From Gonapodya prolifera JEL478 (taxonomy: Eukaryota > Monoblepharomycota > Monoblepharidomycetes > Monoblepharidales > Gonapodyaceae), in the NCBI GenBank assembly GCA_001574975.1, contig KQ965807.1:21687-76142 (forward strand): a DNA stretch of 54,456 nucleotides, read 5' to 3'. Shown in pieces: positions 16,112 through 36,940 of this stretch (its first letter is position 1; each line of letters starts with the position of its first letter). Position numbers and translations under genes: made by a program. The notes beneath the pieces were generated by a model. It had not been told where the DNA came from and searched no databases. It worked only from the letters and a program-made list of their open reading frames with translations.

Positions 16112-17823
<1,712 letters not shown>

Positions 17824-18202
17824 TTGAGTGTAGGCTGTGGTCAGACAAGTCATTACATTGATGTAAAACAGAACGATCCACTGCAAAATAAACATACGAC
17901 GAAGTCAAAGTGGATGTTTCAATGAGCTACTTGCTGGGCCAACTGCTTTTGATGTTGGACTAGCCGCGACGAATCCCATCTCGCAACATCATATGCTTCA
18001 AACTTGTGTTCAGACTCGCTGGTGCTCAATAAGCTTAGCACGCACTTGCAGAGCAGGCGCGTCATTTGTCATGTTGTAAATGTTGTGTATTTGCAACCAA
18101 TTTTGCGCACGTGAGCAGTTGCCAAAAATAATGAATTTTTTTTTGTTTGCGTGATTTCTTTTTTGTATCTCTCATTCTTGCTTGCTGTCGTTTGGATTGG
18201 TA
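17824..18202. other. Intergenic between TrpRS start and the broken block
   Basis: No open frame with coding character is seen. The composition becomes visibly more AT-rich from about 17920 (for example poly-T at 18133-18142), which marks the left side of the unusual block that follows. Confidence 0.4.
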
Positions 18203-18799
18203 TCAACACCAGGTGCTTTCTTGGCAAGTCGCTAGGGTGCGAGGTCGCATTGAGAAAAGAGTACATGTTCTGAAAAATATTTTGCAATATCTGTAGCCGC
18301 GCACGATTTGTGTTGCTTCTTTGATCGCACAGTACACATCATTTTCGAGTACGTAATTGGTTGGAAACGTGGTTCTTTTGGATGGTCGAGTCCATGGGAG
18401 TAGGTTGTAGAGAAATGATTCAAACGTTTGAAATGAAGCATCTGTCATAAAATGGTAACCTCTTTCATCAAACAGGCGCCTCAGCTTGTAAAATAAGTGC
18501 ACCCTCTCTTTGCCCCTGTTCATGTCCTCTCTGTACAGCGACAAGAGTTGCTCGCCATCTCCAACATTGGCCAGCATTTGTGGTGACTCTTGTGCAAATG
18601 AAAAACTCTTGCACCTCATTAATGCGTTTATGCAGTCTTTTAACACTATTGCCAAAACTTCAATATACAGATGTATATCGCTATCTTCAAACTTGTTGCG
18701 GGAAAAGATTGGGATGCGGGTTCGCAAACTACTTGTCGGCGTGGGTTCAGCAGGAGACGCAGAGGACGAGACAATGGGCAAATCAAAGGATGGTGGCAC
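18203..18799 (-). CDS. Unknown intronless 198-residue ORF, left end of virus-like block
   Basis: A single uninterrupted frame with an ATG at 18799, giving a helical protein with no recognised motif. It begins with a Ser/Pro-rich head (about 30 residues), followed by FEDSDIHLYIEVLAIVLKD and a region with ERVHLFYKLRRLFDERGYHF, and ends with several Cys and Arg. Its start overlaps by about 25 bases the start of the serine-rich gene on the opposite strand (18774), so one of the two starts is likely further in. It has no introns, unlike the flanking genes. The proposed viral origin is inference from the neighbours; the function is unknown. Confidence 0.4.
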   Translation of the reverse strand: MPPSFDLPIVSSSASPAEPTPTSSLRTRIPIFSRNKFEDSDIHLYIEVLAIVLKDCINALMRCKSFSFAQESPQMLANVGDGEQLLSLYREDMNRGKERVHLFYKLRRLFDERGYHFMTDASFQTFESFLYNLLPWTRPSKRTTFPTNYVLENDVYCAIKEATQIVRGYRYCKIFFRTCTLFSMRPRTLATCQESTWC

Positions 18800-19545
18800 A
18801 GCTGTAAAGAAGCTTGGAAAACAGGCTATGGGTAAAAGAACGGAAGAGCGTCTTGTACAGACTGGCGAGGAGAAGCGTTTTGTGCCCTTAGACTGCTGGC
18901 GATTACGAAACTGCCAACACTGAGCCGGGAAGAGAAGATGCTCCCCTGTCTCTGTTTGAGTCTACAAGCTTGGGCGCAGATGATGGCAAGCAACAAGAAC
19001 AGTCGACAAAGCTTGAGGACAGAGATCCCCAAAGGATTGGCGATATTGGGGAGAATGCGAGCCAGAGTGAAGGGGCGGCGAGACTGAGTGATTCGGGAGA
19101 CGAAGAGAGTGATGGCGGTAGCAGCAGTGGAGAAGGGGATAGTGACTCTGAAACGGGCTCCAGCAGTTCGGACAGTAGCGCGGAAGAAGCCAAATCTACA
19201 CAAGGCACAGCAACCTCGCGAAAGGTATCGGGATCATCCGCATTGTCCTTATCGTCCAAATCTTCCAAATCTTCCAAATCCTCCTCTTCCTCTTCCTCTT
19301 CCTCTTCCTCTTCCTCTTCCTCTTCTGCAGATTCTTCAGTAAAGGGTAAAAAGAATAAGGAACTGGCATTGCCAAGCGCAAACGAGATTTTGGGCATTGT
19401 CAAGGAAATGCTCAACTCTGGGCTCGCCACCCAACTTATGGGGCAGCTTGGAGGCATGATGCCGCCACCTGTGCCGCAAGCAGCACCTATTGTACCGAGT
19501 GGAACAGCTCCTCCTCCATCCTCTGTTCCCTGGGCGTGGGGATGA
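18774..19545 (+). pseudogene. Serine-rich protein gene with a frame break, intronless
   Basis: The frame starts MGKSKDGGTAVKKLGKQ (18774) with a basic head, then breaks near 18880-18895. Coding character continues in another frame from about 18898 (DYETANTEPGREDAPLSLFE) to the stop at 19543. The second part is acidic and Ser-rich with a long poly-Ser run, and ends in a helix (LPSANEILGIVKEMLNSGLA) plus a Pro-rich tail, MMPPPVPQAAPIVP. No domain is recognised; the layout (basic head, acidic Ser region, C-terminal helix) would suit a virion or nucleic-acid packaging protein, but this is speculation. The break indicates decay or a sequencing indel. Confidence 0.45.
19262..19326 (+). repeat. TCTTCC-type microsatellite coding for poly-serine
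   Basis: Tandem CTTCCAAAT units pass into repeated CCTCTT hexamers, all read in frame as Ser/Lys then Ser. It sits inside the serine-rich gene. Confidence 0.85.
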
Positions 19546-19591
19546 TGAAAAATATTTCGATATTTTTGGGTATTGTGAAACCTTGAACAAA

Positions 19592-20202
19592 TCACGCACC
19601 CGTCTCTATATTCATTGCGTTTGCCAATTCTCTCGTCACTTCATCTACGCTAGGTTTGGGGGATTTTTGGGCGGCTGCTGTTTGCGACACAATCTCGGAT
19701 ACCGCAATAAACGAGAATAACATGTCAATTATTATAATCACCGCCCCAAACCCAATCAGAATATTTCCCAGCTTGCTTGATGTACGCATTATTAAATGCA
19801 ATCCTATTGATACCAACACAATACCTAGTAATAACCAAATGAGCGTTTGGGTCAAGATGAGCGAGTAAGCGCCTGCATAAGCACGTTTTTGTACATGAGT
19901 TACGGTACTTGAAATCTCTGCTATCGATCCTGTCACAAAGTCTCGTATGACCTGAACAATACTCTTTTTGGCGCGGCCCGTTTTGGGGTCCACCTTGATT
20001 TCAAGGATGTGGTCAACCTTTTGGACGGCCTTGCGGTATGTCTCGAAAGGACTCTCGATAGCTTGGCCGTTTGAAGAAGCTTTCCCATCAAGCACCTTTT
20101 TGAAGTCGGTAGTTATTTCAGACAGGTTCTTTAAAGAAGCACCAGAGTTTTGCCTGCCTCGTTAACACCGTCCAAAGACGAGTTTTGATAGTATTCGGGC
20201 AT
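19592..20202 (-). pseudogene. Two-membrane-span protein gene, intronless, frame-broken near its start
   Basis: The main open frame (20095-19592) encodes a protein with basic coiled N-terminal half (AVQKVDHILEIKVDPKTGRA) and two strongly hydrophobic segments: LILTQTLIWLLLGIVLVSIG and LIGFGAVIIIIDMLFSFIA, separated by a short polar turn, a hairpin topology. Coding character continues upstream of the first ATG at 20095, but the frame shifts at a short T run near 20147-20151 and then runs back to a candidate ATG near 20202. Such helical hairpin membrane proteins are common in the inner membrane of large DNA virus particles, though they occur elsewhere too. I found no splice signals to explain the break. 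Confidence 0.5.
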
Positions 20203-20217
20203 TCCTTCCGCCAATCC

Positions 20218-20409
20218 CTAATCGAGTGCATTTATGAGTTTAATAAGCCTGTCTGAAACCTCGTCTATACCAAACATGTGCGATATTGCATCAATGAGAT
20301 ATGTGGAAAACAACAAAGGAGCTGTCGATTCCAAAACACCAACGTGCGCGCGCGTTTTGTAAACAAATAAAATATTCTGTTTGCTTGTATCACACCCACG
20401 CGCATACAA
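20218..20409 (-). other. Short open frame upstream of the two-span protein
   Basis: A 63-codon frame ends DEVSDRLIKLINALD at a TAG at 20218-20220, and open reading continues in the same frame beyond the stop for about 20 codons into the start of the two-span protein. It may be the original N-terminus of that gene cut by a nonsense change, or a separate small ORF. It overlaps the start of the protease gene on the other strand. Confidence 0.3.
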
Positions 20410-21306
20410 TGTATTCCGACCAACACTGGCATCCGCTCAACACATCCGACCCTTGGGAAGAAATTCAAAATGCAGAATCTGGCCGCACTGCTCCTACAAC
20501 ACTTTCTCGTCGTGTGTACAAGCTTAAAGGAGATCCAATTGATTGCAGAGATCTCAAGTTTTCAAGCATAATGGGCGACGCGTGGGATTCCATCGCACTC
20601 CCGCGCACCTTTGATATTTGCACAGATGTCGCAGGAGGCGCTCCAGAAATCTTCGATCAAGGCGCTCTTCCCACATGCGCGCCAAACGAGATTTCGAACG
20701 CTCTCAAGCACTATCCTCAAGTTGAAAGGACGAAAAAAGTGTTTCAGCCTTCGCGGCTTGCCATCTATTATTGGGCGAGGGTGCTTGTTGGCACTCCTAT
20801 CGATCAGGAAGATGTGATTACTTTGAGATCGGGCTTTAAAAGCATTGCCAAGTATGGAGCAATTGATGAAAACAATTGGCCGTATTTGGAGAGTGGGGTA
20901 TTTGAAGCACCGCCCGCACAGCTGGCAAGTAAAGCAACCGTGCATGCAAGAGGATTCAAGTACATGTCTGTGCCAAGGGATTTGATGGCGATTAAAAGGT
21001 AATCGCTACCGGGTTTCCGGTAGTGATTGAGATTCAGGTATTTGAGAGTTTGGAGTCTGATGCGGTTGTTGAGTCGGGCGATATTCCGATGCCAAATATG
21101 GAACAGGAAAAGTGTTTGGGCGGGCATGCGGTCGCGCTTTATGGTTTTGATGATAAGACGCAGAGGTTTGTGATGATGAATTCTTGGGGAGTTGGTGTTG
21201 GACAAGATGGGTGGTTTACTCTGCGGTATGATTATGTGATGGATTCCGGCGAGCAATTTTTGGGTTGCGAAATACTTTGTATAGTGTTACATTTGGTAGC
21301 TTGTTG
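20409..21306 (+). pseudogene. Papain-like (C1) cysteine protease, intronless, one frameshift
   Basis: Cysteine peptidase fold with all three catalytic residues visible. The oxyanion/cysteine region reads FDQGALPTCAPNEIS (Cys codon 20676-20678), a helix NALKHYPQ follows, and the C-terminal half has GGHAVALYGFDD (His 21125-21127) and MMNSWGVGVGQDGWF (Asn 21179-21181). There is no signal peptide and no long propeptide, unlike lysosomal cathepsins; this compact type occurs in bacteria and in several Nucleocytoviricota. The frame stops at TAA 21000-21002, and the family motif (I-A-x-G-x-P-V-V) continues one frame away from about 21000, so a single-base indel near an A run (20993-20998) disrupts it. 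The stop of the second part is at 21304. A sequencing error is possible but other genes in the block are broken too. Confidence 0.72.
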
Positions 21307-21329
21307 AATTACAGATGGTACTTAATCTT

Positions 21330-21913
21330 TCACAATCTTGAAGTGCTTCCGTTGATTGCCGGTGGAAGCCGCGCAACGCTCACTTCAGAACGCGCCAACA
21401 ATTTATCGCGCAGCCAATCGCGAATCCAGGGATCATTAACTTCAGAATACGCATTGATTTCCCGAATGGTACCCCCAATCAGGCAATCGACTTTGGGAGG
21501 ATGGTTCCCCTTGTGCTGGCGCGATTTTCTGCCGCCAACCATTTTCCCACTTCCATCCAATCTAAAGTTTTACCGGCCTTGCCCATAATATCTCTGTAGA
21601 AATCGCTGACAGGAGTGAGAATACGAGTTTGCGCCGCTGATGATTCCCCATTTTCGAGAAGGCGCGCGGTTTTAGGCGCCACCTGGTTTGAAACATAATC
21701 ATCACCCCGGACCAGTACCGCCGTCCACGGCGCTTGGAACTCAACCAACAGAGGAACGAGCAACGAGTGCGAGAATGGAAGATGAAGTGGGGTTGGGAAG
21801 CGTTTGATTGGACACGGGCGTTGGAGGAGGAAGCATGATGTAAAGTACCGGGAACGATTATACAACAGCGCCCCCGAGTTTTCGACCATTGAAACTGTGG
21901 ATCTTAGTTTCAA
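21330..21913 (-). pseudogene. Unknown broken ORF pair at the right end of the block
   Basis: A 144-codon frame (21913-21479) contains WTAVLVRGDDYVSNQVAPKT and SDFYRDIMGKAGKTLDWMEV. A second frame (21560-21330) overlaps its end and continues with similar composition (GGTIREINAYSEVNDPWIRD), suggesting one gene read across a frameshift near 21540-21500. No family is recognised. An AT-rich TTTATATATTCG (minus, about 21962-21950) lies 40 bases upstream and could be a promoter element. Assignment to the virus-like block is only by position and lack of introns. Confidence 0.35.
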
Positions 21914-22051
21914 AGGAAAACCTCAAACATGGCTGATGGTAAAAAGGCACGAATATATAAAGACGACGAGATAAATGCAGATAAAAGTGATTGCCGACCC
22001 CAAGAATCTGGGTGATGATCATGGTACGCTATCCGACACCGATTCTCCAAC

Positions 22052-25000
22052 TCACTTTTCAAACAATAGATACGATATACCAAGCAGATCAAAAAGCGTC
22101 CTTAAATAATGTTCAAATGTCCGTTTTAAGCACTTCCCTGACGAGAGTTCATCACGTGGGTCTGCGTGCAGATCGGGCACCAATCCCTGTTTTTCATCGA
22201 GTGTAGTCATTTGACTTTGCTGCTGTTGCTTCAAAGTTTCGCATGCTTTAGAAAGTGCTCGTTTCGATGACAGCTGGTCTGGGTGATCTTTCGGCAGTGT
22301 GTTCTCTTGAATTGCAACGATATGATCCAGTAGAGAAATAGCCTTTTCGGTGTCACCGTTGGCTTGGTACACCATGGCAAGGTTGTGCTGTGTTGTGAGG
22401 CTGTCCCGGTGATCTTCTTCGAGCTCACTTTCTCGAATTCTCACAATGTGCTCCAATAATCCGATTGCCTTATGCATATGACCATGGGCGTAATATGCCA
22501 TAGCGAGGTTATTCTGCGATGCGAGCCGATCAGGGTGGTCTTCAGGCTGCGTGCGACCTCGAACGGCCACTATCTGCTCCAGCAGCGAAATTTCCTTGTC
22601 CACATCACCTTGGGCCATGTATGCAGAAACAAGCGAGTTTTGCGCCGCTAAGAGGTCCGGATGGTCATCGGTCTGTATGTTTAAACGGATTTTTACCACG
22701 TCTTCCAGGAGTGCGACTGCCCTGGATACTTGCACGCCCTGGAACAGGTACGCTAACGCAAGGTCCTGTTGTGTCAAAAGTAGATCGGGATGGTCCTCGT
22801 TAAGATTCTTGCCTTGGGCTTCCAAAACATGTTCCAGCAATGAAACTGCCTTATCAACCTCGCCTTCGTCCTGATACGCCATCGCTAGTACGTGCTGCGA
22901 TGCTAGAACGTCGGGGTGGTCCTCAGCCTGGCTGCGGCCTCTAATCTCCACAACACGTTCCAGAAGCGCAACTGCCTTGTCAATCTCTCCGCGCTCCTGG
23001 TACACTCGCGCAAGCTCGTGTTGTGCTGCCAACCTGTCTCTATGCTCCTCCGAGAAAGCGTGCTCTGCGACTGCCACAACGTGCTCCAGCAGAGCAAACG
23101 CTTTATCAACCTCGCCAAGTTCTTGATACACCATTGCAAGCATATGTTGTGATGCAAGTCTGTCTAGGTGGTGTTCTGCCAGGGTCCGTAATCTGATTGC
23201 CACAACATGCTCAAGCAGCGAAACAGCCTTAGTCATCTGTCCATTCAATTTGTACACCGACCCTAGGGTGTGTTGTGCCGTGAGTCGTTGTGGGTGGTCC
23301 TCGGCCAATGTGCGTTCTTGGATTTGCACAACGTGCTCCAGGAGTGCAATTGCCTTGTCCACCTCTCCGTTGTCCTGGTACACCATTGCAAGGTTATGTT
23401 GTGATGTAAGTTGACTTGGGTGATCCTCGGCGAGTTTACGTCCTCCCATCGCCACAACATGCTCCAGAAGCTCAACTGCCTTCGACATCTGTCCCATTGC
23501 GTGGTATGCCAAAGCCAGTGCATTTTGCGACTCCAGTCGGTCTGTATGGTCTTCTGCCAATACATGAGCCTCAATGTCCACAACATGCTCCAGCAGAACA
23601 ACCGCCTTCCCCAACTCGGCATGGTCTTGGTATACCAGGGCAAGCATGTGTTGCGATGCAAGCAAATATGGGTGGTCTTCCGCCAGCGAACGTTCTCTAA
23701 TTGCCACAACATGTTCCAAAAGAACAACTGCTCTGTCCACCTGGCCATGGTTATAGTATGCCAAAGCAAGTGCTTGCTGCGCTACAACTATATCTGGATT
23801 TTCCTCAGGAATGCTGGCCACAACACGTTCAAGCAGCGCAAGAGCTTTATCCACATACCCATGCCTCTGGTACACCATGGCAAGATTATGGAGGGATCCC
23901 AATAACTCTGGGTCATTTTCTCCCAGCGTGCGTTCACGGATCATGACAACGTGTTCAAGCAGTTCAACTGCCTGTGCAATAAGGCCGTGAGCTTGATAAG
24001 CCCGCGCCAGCCTTCGTTGTGAGTCTAAGCGGTCGGGATGGTCTTCTGGCAGTGTGCGACTACGAGTAGCAACGACTTCTTCCAGCAACTCTACTCCTTT
24101 GCCTGTGTTTTCAGCGACAATTAAACCAGCATTGTACCAGTCAGCCAGCCTGATTTGGGCATCAACTTGTCCTTGAGACGCCGCCTTCTCATACCACTCC
24201 GCGGCGCGTTCAAGAGATCTCTCAACAATGCCTAGTCCATTCAAGTAAAACCATGCTAGTTGCTCCTGTGCGTCAGGGTGACCCATATTGGCAGCATGCC
24301 GGTAAAACTGCGATGCTCTGAAAAGGTCTCGTGCGCCAGAAGCCTCCTTGCCAAGAGCCACAACGGCTGAAGAGTCCAACTTGGGGTCAATAGTGAATTT
24401 TGGTTCCAATACCACTGCGATATCTTTTTGGCTGGAAAGACAAGGATCAAAACTCAAAACGTGCCTGCACCGGTGGGTGGTCACTTACACATAGGTTGCG
24501 AGTATGCTACTGATCTCTGAAAATTCTGGCCTCAGATCTGGTTCCTGGTGCCAACAACGCTCCATAAGATTACGAAGCCAAGGCGGCATGCCTGCTGGAG
24601 TGCTCTCTCCGTTCAGAAGGGGCCGCAGCACACCTTTGCAAATGTACTGCCAAACCTCGTCCTCCTCTTCTAAGCTCATGGTAGAACTGAATTGTGGGTA
24701 AAAGGGCTTGAGTGTCCAGATCTTTAATAACAAAATTCAGATGCATTTGTTTGGCAAGAATCCAAATCGCACCTACCGCAAAGATGGTCACGCCAAAGGC
24801 GTACACATCGTCCTTAACCGTTGTCCCTTTTCCCAAAAGCCGCTCTGGCGACATGTATTTTGGTGTGCCCATCCGGTCCCCTGTGACCGTGGTATTTGGT
24901 CGTCGTCGATCAAAGCTCAGAAGCCGTGTAAATGTTGCAGTGGCGGGAACAGGTTCCTGGCAGATCATCACCCATCAATTGAGGTCTCGAGAAACGCAAT

Positions 25001-36208: not shown

Positions 36209-36940
36209 AGGTCAGGCCAGCATGTTCGTTGGAAAGGTCTAGGGAAGATAAATTTGAGAGGCTCGTGAGGGAAGGAATGGAGCCACTGAGAAGGTTGTTC
36301 CTGAGGTTGACGGTTGCGAGCGGAAGGCCCTCGAGAGACGGAATCTCGCCCGAAAGTCGATTACCGTGCAGGTCAATTTCGGACAGGTTTTGAGCACCGT
36401 GAGAGACGGAATGGTGCCGTTGAGAGTGTTGTCGAACAAAAATTTGACGTTGACATGACTCAGGAATCGGTCCAGAGAGTTGATTTCCGTCCATTCCAAT
36501 CTCGTGATCTTCGAAAGACCGGCAAGCGAGGGGATTGGCCCGCTCAGCAGATGCCCTCTCAAAGACAAAACTTCGAGTTTCGTGAGCACCGATAAGTCCG
36601 GAATAGGCCCCTCAAATCTCGTATTGTAGTGGTATATGAGGGGTTTATGAACATGACAAGGACCACAGTGACCCTGTCATCCCCAGAGCACCCAAAGTAG
36701 ATCGCATTGCTGCAGCAGAAACCCGTCCGCCTCGAGTACTCTGCGCGTGAGTGGTTGAAAAGCTTCTCGAAGGGCGCGCAGTCCTCTGCCTGCTACAGTG
36801 CGGCCACGGAGGGCGACCTCATAAACACAGCGAGGATTACCGCGATGGCAATCAACGGCCACGCAGAGGTGCGATCGGCACGGGAAGCGTTGCACGGCAT
36901 GCGTAAAAGTGAACCGGGCGAAACAAAATGACACCTGACG
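36120..36940 (-). pseudogene. Leucine-rich-repeat surface protein, many frame breaks and an in-frame stop
   Basis: A hydrophobic leader (AWPLIAIAVILAVFMRSPSV, about 36860) is followed by an in-frame TAG near 36798. A cysteine-rich N-terminal cap comes next (EDCAPFEKLF and GFCCSNAIYFGCSG, about 36785-36690). LRRs of the SGxIPxL type follow in three alternating frames: LTKLEVLSLRGHLLSGPIPS (36590), MDGNQLSGPIPES (36494), FLFDNTLNGTIPSLTVL, NLSEIDLHGNRLSGEIPSLE (36395), LRNNLLSGSIPSLTSLSNL, and SLTSVGLWQNNLTGNVDC (36190). At least four frame changes are needed, so the gene is dead unless the assembly is very poor here. It is related to the LRR unit of the LRR-TM-SH3 gene at 32 kb (both end NNL[ST]GNVDCR). 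Confidence 0.65.

Follow-up and report, generated by a model that had tools for sequence, protein, structure and literature searches.

Small nucleocytovirus islands amid eukaryotic genes have been described in Gonapodya prolifera and Allomyces macrogynus (PMC5294986), and a 1.5-Mb endogenous viral region with five markers, pseudogenes and a GC difference in Rhizophagus irregularis (PMC10640383). The abstract of PMC10640383 states that, as of 2023, fungi had no known double-stranded DNA viruses. The evidence for fungal giant viruses considered here comprises genome fossils (PMC5294986, PMC10640383) and single-virion genomes (PMC9894930). Here, we analyze a stretch of 54,456 nucleotides from G. 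prolifera JEL478 (contig KQ965807.1, positions 21,687 to 76,142; C77:21687-76142 in our numbering), hereafter the window, from a genome of 47.6 Mb in 207 contigs. Within it, an AT-richer block of about 3.5 kb with compact open reading frames (ORFs) on alternating strands sits between a tRNA-synthetase gene and a kinase-TPR gene. We conclude that this block is probably a decayed, virus-derived fragment, with a nucleocytovirus-like giant virus as its most probable source.

A split C1 protease

Host genes flank the block on both sides, and a single gene within it, a papain-like C1 protease on the forward strand, has viral relatives. Its N-terminal part (20409..20999) is 59% identical over 164 aa to P0001, an intact protein of 283 aa encoded on a 1.1-kb contig. 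The C-terminal part (20996..21244), in another frame, is 73% identical to the same protein over 84 aa. The frames that carry the two parts, of 234 and 103 aa, pair with P0001 residues 24-187 and 187-270, respectively. Because these stretches adjoin, the parts belong to a single gene without introns, which a frame break near 21.0 kb has split. Beyond ~21.25 kb the window protease stops following P0001. The family PF00112 matches the C-terminal part (E 8.7e-5; 23.1 bits against a curated cut-off of 20.7). The N-terminal part has no Pfam match of its own, and P0001 is the only database relative found with it. The papain-like protease recognized in the first-pass annotation of this DNA is thus confirmed by both the family match and the relative.

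Candidate codons for Cys (20676), His (21125) and Asn (21179) are kept and align with the invariant columns C80, H230 and N248 of alignment A1. We take these to be the catalytic residues; since they stand in two frames, no whole enzyme is encoded.

The AlphaFold model of P0001 is confident (predicted local distance difference test, pLDDT, 92.5). Among the 50 matches shown from a viral structure library, a tailed-phage protein ranks first, followed by peptidases of Edafosvirus and Terrestrivirus. Many of the named viral relatives in this set are giant viruses and the rest are largely phages. A mimivirus protein shows 40% identity to P0001 over 174 columns.

The genome holds two further relics of the protease. 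A second broken copy (C31:146394-147057; L005 8680-9288) adjoins an intronless-looking NADAR gene on one side and, on the other, a kinase-Sel1 gene like the neighbor of the window copy; a third, short piece lies on C158. The shared kinase-TPR neighbor was given no weight as a sign of common origin because Sel1 repeats are so common. They are strongly expanded genome-wide, with 150 matches among 150 scored of 703 first-look candidates.

Phylogeny of the protease and the viral record G017

A search with P0001 retrieved 76 proteins, itself included. Viral-contig scans with the window protease part, and with P0001 alone, gave no result. Of the 45 viral-contig and bacterial loci collected first, 40 entered the trees; L020, L022 and L030 were omitted as near-copies, L026 because it is a copy carrying a large insertion, and L053 because it is weak. 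Viral-contig loci obtained later, among them the best 80 of 398 matches of one protease search, are not in the trees. Both trees are quick-search trees without bootstraps; in the main one (119 rows, 263 columns), L025 and the C-terminal part from the window fill less than half of the columns.

One branch, with a Shimodaira–Hasegawa-like approximate likelihood-ratio test (SH-aLRT) value of 97, divides the rows in two. On the side of 40 rows stand both window parts, the C31 copy, the viral-contig locus L025 and 36 of the 76 database proteins. The 79 rows across the branch comprise every bacterial row (21), the remaining 18 viral-contig rows and the other 40 database proteins. Each window part is paired with P0001 (99) rather than with the C31 copy. 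A tree of the shorter C-terminal part agrees weakly (SH-aLRT 81).

L025 comes from G017, a viral record of 41 kb, where it is located at the end. The other genes of this record encode the small and large chains of ribonucleotide reductase (RNR; the large chain with an intein), DnaJ, a polysaccharide pyruvyltransferase, a kinase and a T5orf172 protein, and an exostosin match falls below the cut-off. Judged from these genes, G017 is probably a giant virus. Four of its non-protease frames match loci of the G. prolifera genome itself, on C6, C51, C195 and C176 (best E 1e-56 to 2e-17), two of the four shared genes, the kinase and RNR, being members of common families. On C6 and C51 the genes matching G017 adjoin a VLTF3 gene. 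Across 44 further viral-contig and bacterial loci (682 kb), by contrast, the protease is the only part of G017 with a match.

Giant-virus genes elsewhere in the genome

Nucleocytovirus genes are present on other contigs. The capsid family PF04451 is found at two loci, on C176 and C52, in open frames of 407-411 aa that each carry PF16903 and PF04451. VLTF3 (PF04947) gives seven matches on six contigs; the copy on C15 has two TGA stops and that on C51 is in two pieces. None of 14 control genomes has a match in the capsid search, nor in the VLTF3 search, and a later VLTF3 search gave a match below the cut-off in B. subtilis. D5_N yields nine matches on eight contigs, in a family that also gives matches in 3 of the 14 control genomes.

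The loci differ in composition. In the 10 kb fetched around each, GC is 0.462-0.473 for C41, C6, C15 and C51, 0.499 for C52 and 0.513 for C117, while the pieces of C195 and C176 have a GC of 0.38-0.43 and long open frames. The block, at 0.469, is like the first four and unlike C117, C52, C176 and C195, of which the last two are lower. This spread may reflect different ages of the viral loci or different amounts of host DNA in them.

C176 (34.3 kb; L063, L080-L082; GC 0.385-0.428) carries the open capsid frame, a helicase, a weak primase-like match and a 1557-aa repeat-protein frame. C195 (19.4 kb; L066, L078, L079; GC 0.38-0.40) carries VLTF3, a cyclin, an RNR N-terminal part, and kinase-like and short membrane-protein frames of giant-virus type. 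The VLTF3 loci L068, L069 and L070 are those on C6, C15 and C51, and L069 lies near long frames that look retroelement-like by eye. Near the VLTF3 locus on C117, a 241-aa frame is 43-50% similar to a frame at 36407-36792 of the window; the two probably belong to a host family.

C176 may be a recent insert or a virus co-sequenced with its host. We regard it as possible, if doubtful, that a fungus-associated lineage of giant viruses, related to G017, infects the organism repeatedly and perhaps to this day. The organism would carry scraps like that in the window in ordinary chromosomes (10-kb loci with GC 0.46-0.51), and C176 and C195, with their open capsid, VLTF3, RNR-like and repeat-protein frames, would perhaps be a recent insert or a replicating, co-sequenced virus.

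The capsid and VLTF3 genes also bear on the type of element from which the block derives. Polintons and virophages are marked by a protein-primed PolB, an integrase and a C5 protease. If the block derived instead from some other mobile element or DNA virus (polinton-like virus, virophage or mirusvirus), the absence of a nucleocytovirus hallmark from its Pfam scan would fit, and such elements also integrate into protist genomes. We consider this origin improbable: the proteases of polintons and virophages are of the C5 adenovirus type, not papain-type, many of the named viral relatives of the protease among the 50 matches shown are giant viruses, with the rest largely phages, and the capsid and VLTF3 genes of this genome are of nucleocytovirus type. 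None of the three polinton and virophage marks is among the Pfam matches of the scanned frames of the block.

Open frames and composition of the block

Between 18.2 and 21.3 kb the block contains stop-to-stop frames of 252 (-), 217 (+), 189 (-), 234 (+) and 103 (+) aa, the last two being those of the protease, which bears out the alternating strands described in the first-pass annotation. Its count of five or six ORFs does not stand, since its frame at 21479-21922 (-), of 147 aa, runs antisense through a host exon remnant at 21694-21842. In 300 dinucleotide shuffles of 18203-21693 no frame reached 234 aa. Frames of at least 150 aa numbered 0.36 on average and 3 at most in these shuffles, against 6 observed. 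In the rest of the window, 29 of 86 same-sized comparison windows (4 of the 86 overlap the block) also have at least four frames of at least 180 aa; frame length alone is therefore no marker of the block.

The block has a GC content of 0.469, compared with 0.535 in the left flank and 0.523 in the right. The AT-richness noted earlier is real, but other parts of the window share it. Equally low GC is found in individual kilobases, for instance at 15-16, 27-28, 41-42 and 48-51 kb, and 12 of 508 sliding 3.7-kb windows, the block's own counted in, are as low as the interval originally delimited (18203..21913). These AT-rich kilobases, like the 29 frame-rich windows, are what would be expected if the block were simply a stretch richer in AT, with normal host genes or frames open by chance. 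As an account of the block this is very improbable: the protease, for which it is unlikely, is a real gene with an intact relative, and no shuffle reaches the length of its longer frame. It could hold for the 252-aa and 147-aa frames.

Motifs resembling 5' splice sites are sparser in the block (0.57 per kb) than outside (2.75 and 1.98 per kb). The absence of introns, claimed earlier for all ORFs, holds for the protease through its pairing with P0001 and is demonstrated for no other. Similarly, the statement that the frames are all broken, near homopolymers, can be demonstrated for the protease, which is split, but not for the others, as it is the sole ORF with clear relatives.

The Ser-rich acidic/basic frame (18892..19545, +; 217 aa) contains 25% Ser, in line with the Ser-rich protein of the earlier description, and its only Pfam match, PF08601, is below the cut-off (E 0.15). 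A possible N-terminal piece of this gene, in another frame, would span 18774..18923 (+), with an ATG at 18774. The 252-aa frame (18206..18961, -) has no confident relatives: it gives no Pfam match and a best PHROG E of 0.22, yields only itself in its own genome, and has no confirmed relative among viral contigs. Its coding part is probably confined to about 18206-18690, because the upstream quarter of the frame lies antisense to the Ser-rich gene.

The 189-aa frame (19595..20161, -) has two hydrophobic spans by hydropathy (~19787-19843 and 19706-19762), in agreement with the two-span membrane hairpin proposed from the first inspection. Its family matches are all below the cut-off (PF20990, E 0.01; phrog_29378, E 0.0077). 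The viral-contig scan found no relative, and none of the 188 candidates of a protein-database search reached E <= 1; a single-sequence fold of the membrane piece was unusable (pLDDT 54). A possible N-terminal piece of this gene may lie in another frame at 20221..20436 (-), partly antisense to the start of the protease. At 21333..21693 (-), a 79-aa frame and part of the 147-aa frame are uncertain remnants, which match no Pfam or PHROG family.

Between the convergent Ser-rich and membrane genes, we observe an AT-rich perfect hairpin with an 8-bp stem (19548..19567), which may be a 3'-end signal. It is the only stem-8 hairpin in 18001-22000; one occurs in the left 18 kb and one in the right 32 kb. 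It overlaps one copy of the motif AAAATATT. Counting both strands, 18001-22000 has four such motifs and the remainder of the window one; this difference may partly be an effect of AT content.

A helicase frame on C176 aligned with 18842-18943 over 34 residues at E 0.004, which was taken as chance given 134 queries. Rfam has no match across the window.

Host flanks and edges

On the left, exons of a tryptophan/tyrosine tRNA synthetase-like gene (16854..17904, -) match PF00579 in two successive open frames (E 1.4e-17 and 1.3e-8) and lie outside the insert. The left edge can be placed only between the inferred start of this gene (~17.8 kb) and 18.2 kb. On the right, also outside the insert, the TPR/Sel1 part of the kinase-TPR gene (22055..24484, -) matches TPR_10 (E 6.6e-94), with kinase pieces further right, at ~25 kb.

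The right junction is marked by a last-exon fragment of a CwfJ-like host gene (21694..21842, +), which is not viral. In a DNA search, 21702-21842 is 89% identical to CwfJ-like genes on C35 (141 bp) and C92 (139 bp). The counterpart on these contigs is the last exon of the gene, and CwfJ_C_1 is found in two frames of the C92 gene. The C35 and C92 copies are longer than the remnant in the window, with ~4.2 kb in common at 84% identity. In the window the remnant begins mid-exon at ~21694, and the sequence before this point is unrelated. Further along, at ~21.91-21.99 kb, the window is similar to the flank of the C92 gene, a similarity equalled by 0 of 300 shuffles, but not to that of the C35 gene, where 60 of 300 shuffles do as well. 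As the exon starts midway and is followed by a C92-like flank, the insert, or an accompanying deletion, ends at ~21.69 kb in a truncated CwfJ duplicate. No terminal or target-site repeats stood out in a repeat search of 17.6-22.4 kb.

Letters N occur in the window only at 16626 and 52385, with none within 17-23 kb, as might not be expected had a viral contig been joined to a host contig during assembly. A decayed protease and a CwfJ remnant at the edge would also be surprising in a chimera with a live virus, and we consider such an artefact extremely improbable.

Origin of the block

Three lines of evidence support a giant-virus origin: the capsid and VLTF3 genes of the genome, the placement of the protease in the tree, and the genes that the genome shares with G017. 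The claim of a large-DNA-virus fossil made in the first-pass annotation is, therefore, the best-supported reading, although the reasons given for it were inadequate, C1 proteases being also bacterial and phage proteins; the support comes from the genome context. No best hit to an ordinary fungal gene with conserved introns was seen, in searches that did not include a collection of eukaryote genomes.

Several observations weigh against this origin. The Pfam scan of the main frames finds no hallmark gene in the block (major capsid protein, VLTF3, D5 or A32), the contig C77 as a whole has no capsid, VLTF3 or D5 match, and the A32 ATPase is not found anywhere in the genome. For the membrane and 252-aa frames, no search returned a confident relative, and the resident viral loci and G017 gave none either; the best match there is one of 17 residues (E 0.025) with the possible N-terminal piece of the membrane gene. 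None of the other ORFs of the block was found in G017. Searched genome-wide, the protease has matches on C77, C31 and C158 alone, and none of these three is among the contigs with capsid or VLTF3 genes. Neither capsid nor VLTF3 was found in the 41 kb of G017 itself, whose giant-virus label therefore rests on its other genes; over the viral records the capsid search (23 records) and the VLTF3 search (26 records) gave no match.

The protease family, moreover, also occurs at 22 bacterial genome loci, in three phage records and in many viral contigs, which we judge, from the frames of some of them, to be mostly phage-like among those examined. The C-terminal part matches the phage peptidase family phrog_16701 (E 6e-5), and the tailed-phage protein at the head of the fold matches stands narrowly above Edafosvirus. 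A family specific to eukaryote viruses was rejected on the grounds that bacterial loci, phage records and phage-like contigs carry it, and for the same reason the protease by itself proves no viral origin. The phylogeny suggested as a check of the first-pass annotation does place the protease with L025 and apart from the bacterial rows, but the raw identity of its C-terminal part is 53% to the actinobacterium L032 and 51% to L025. Since these values are about equal, the separation from bacteria depends on the tree.

An alternative is a host gene of foreign origin, acquired singly long ago from a virus or bacterium, that formed a small host family (window, C31 and the C158 fragment) and died, with the neighboring ORFs as orphan host sequence. 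The three protease loci would be accounted for in this way, as would the lack of confident viral relatives of the other ORFs and the occurrence of P0001 on a short contig of unassigned origin. Both larger copies also adjoin the 3' end of a minus-strand kinase-TPR/Sel1 gene, a possible shared host neighborhood, although Sel1 is so common here that this may be chance. The window copy, however, pairs with P0001 and not with the C31 copy, and several compact alternating-strand ORFs, including a membrane protein, would fit a captured stretch better. We consider a single acquired gene unlikely.

For the virus-derived fragment, the claim over the block as a whole rests on one gene and its context, because the block has no hallmark gene, its other ORFs are orphans, and one of the ORFs proposed earlier is partly a host exon. 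We suggest that the stretch from ~18.0-18.2 to ~21.69 kb arose when nucleocytovirus-like DNA in the nucleus was taken up at a chromosome break. Capture would have taken place beside the 3' end of the duplicated, now truncated CwfJ gene, probably through ordinary end-joining. Besides the compact C1 protease, the captured DNA would have included the small orphan genes, two or three in number, which presumably arrived with it. Decay would have followed, and from its sequence the block appears to be inert today. For the virus, the protease may, as a guess, have cleaved viral or host proteins.

Comparison with known systems

Endogenous giant-virus fossils are already known from early-branching fungi, and the block most likely adds a further example. 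It is a small dead part of a larger story, and it suggests the protease as a marker for the viral lineage. As a fragment without hallmark genes, it would be missed by hallmark-only surveys. The greater interest more likely lies in the resident capsid- and VLTF3-bearing contigs, the several viral loci and the two low-GC contigs with intact viral frames. A genome with both viral scraps and low-GC open capsid and late-transcription frames would make it possible to ask directly whether viruses of this kind infect an early-branching fungus today.

The C1A papain-like proteases of giant viruses in BFVD have the same fold as P0001, with identities over aligned columns of 30% (Edafosvirus), 26% (Terrestrivirus) and 40% (mimivirus). 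The closest solved structure to P0001 by sequence is the cysteine protease 3OIS (E 8e-35). Unlike these named giant-virus proteases, the nearest sequence relative of the window protease is the metagenomic P0001 (59% and 73% for the two parts).

The Rhizophagus region (PMC10640383) is nucleocytovirus DNA within a fungal chromosome, contains pseudogenes and differs in GC, features that the block probably shares. That region is a long one with five markers, whereas here we observe a 3.5-kb scrap and traces on other contigs. The islands of Gonapodya and Allomyces (PMC5294986) are like the block small viral islands in early-branching fungi, and the Gonapodya case has a capsid gene. Those islands were found by their core genes, whereas the present one, which has none, is recognized by its protease and the context of the genome in which it lies.

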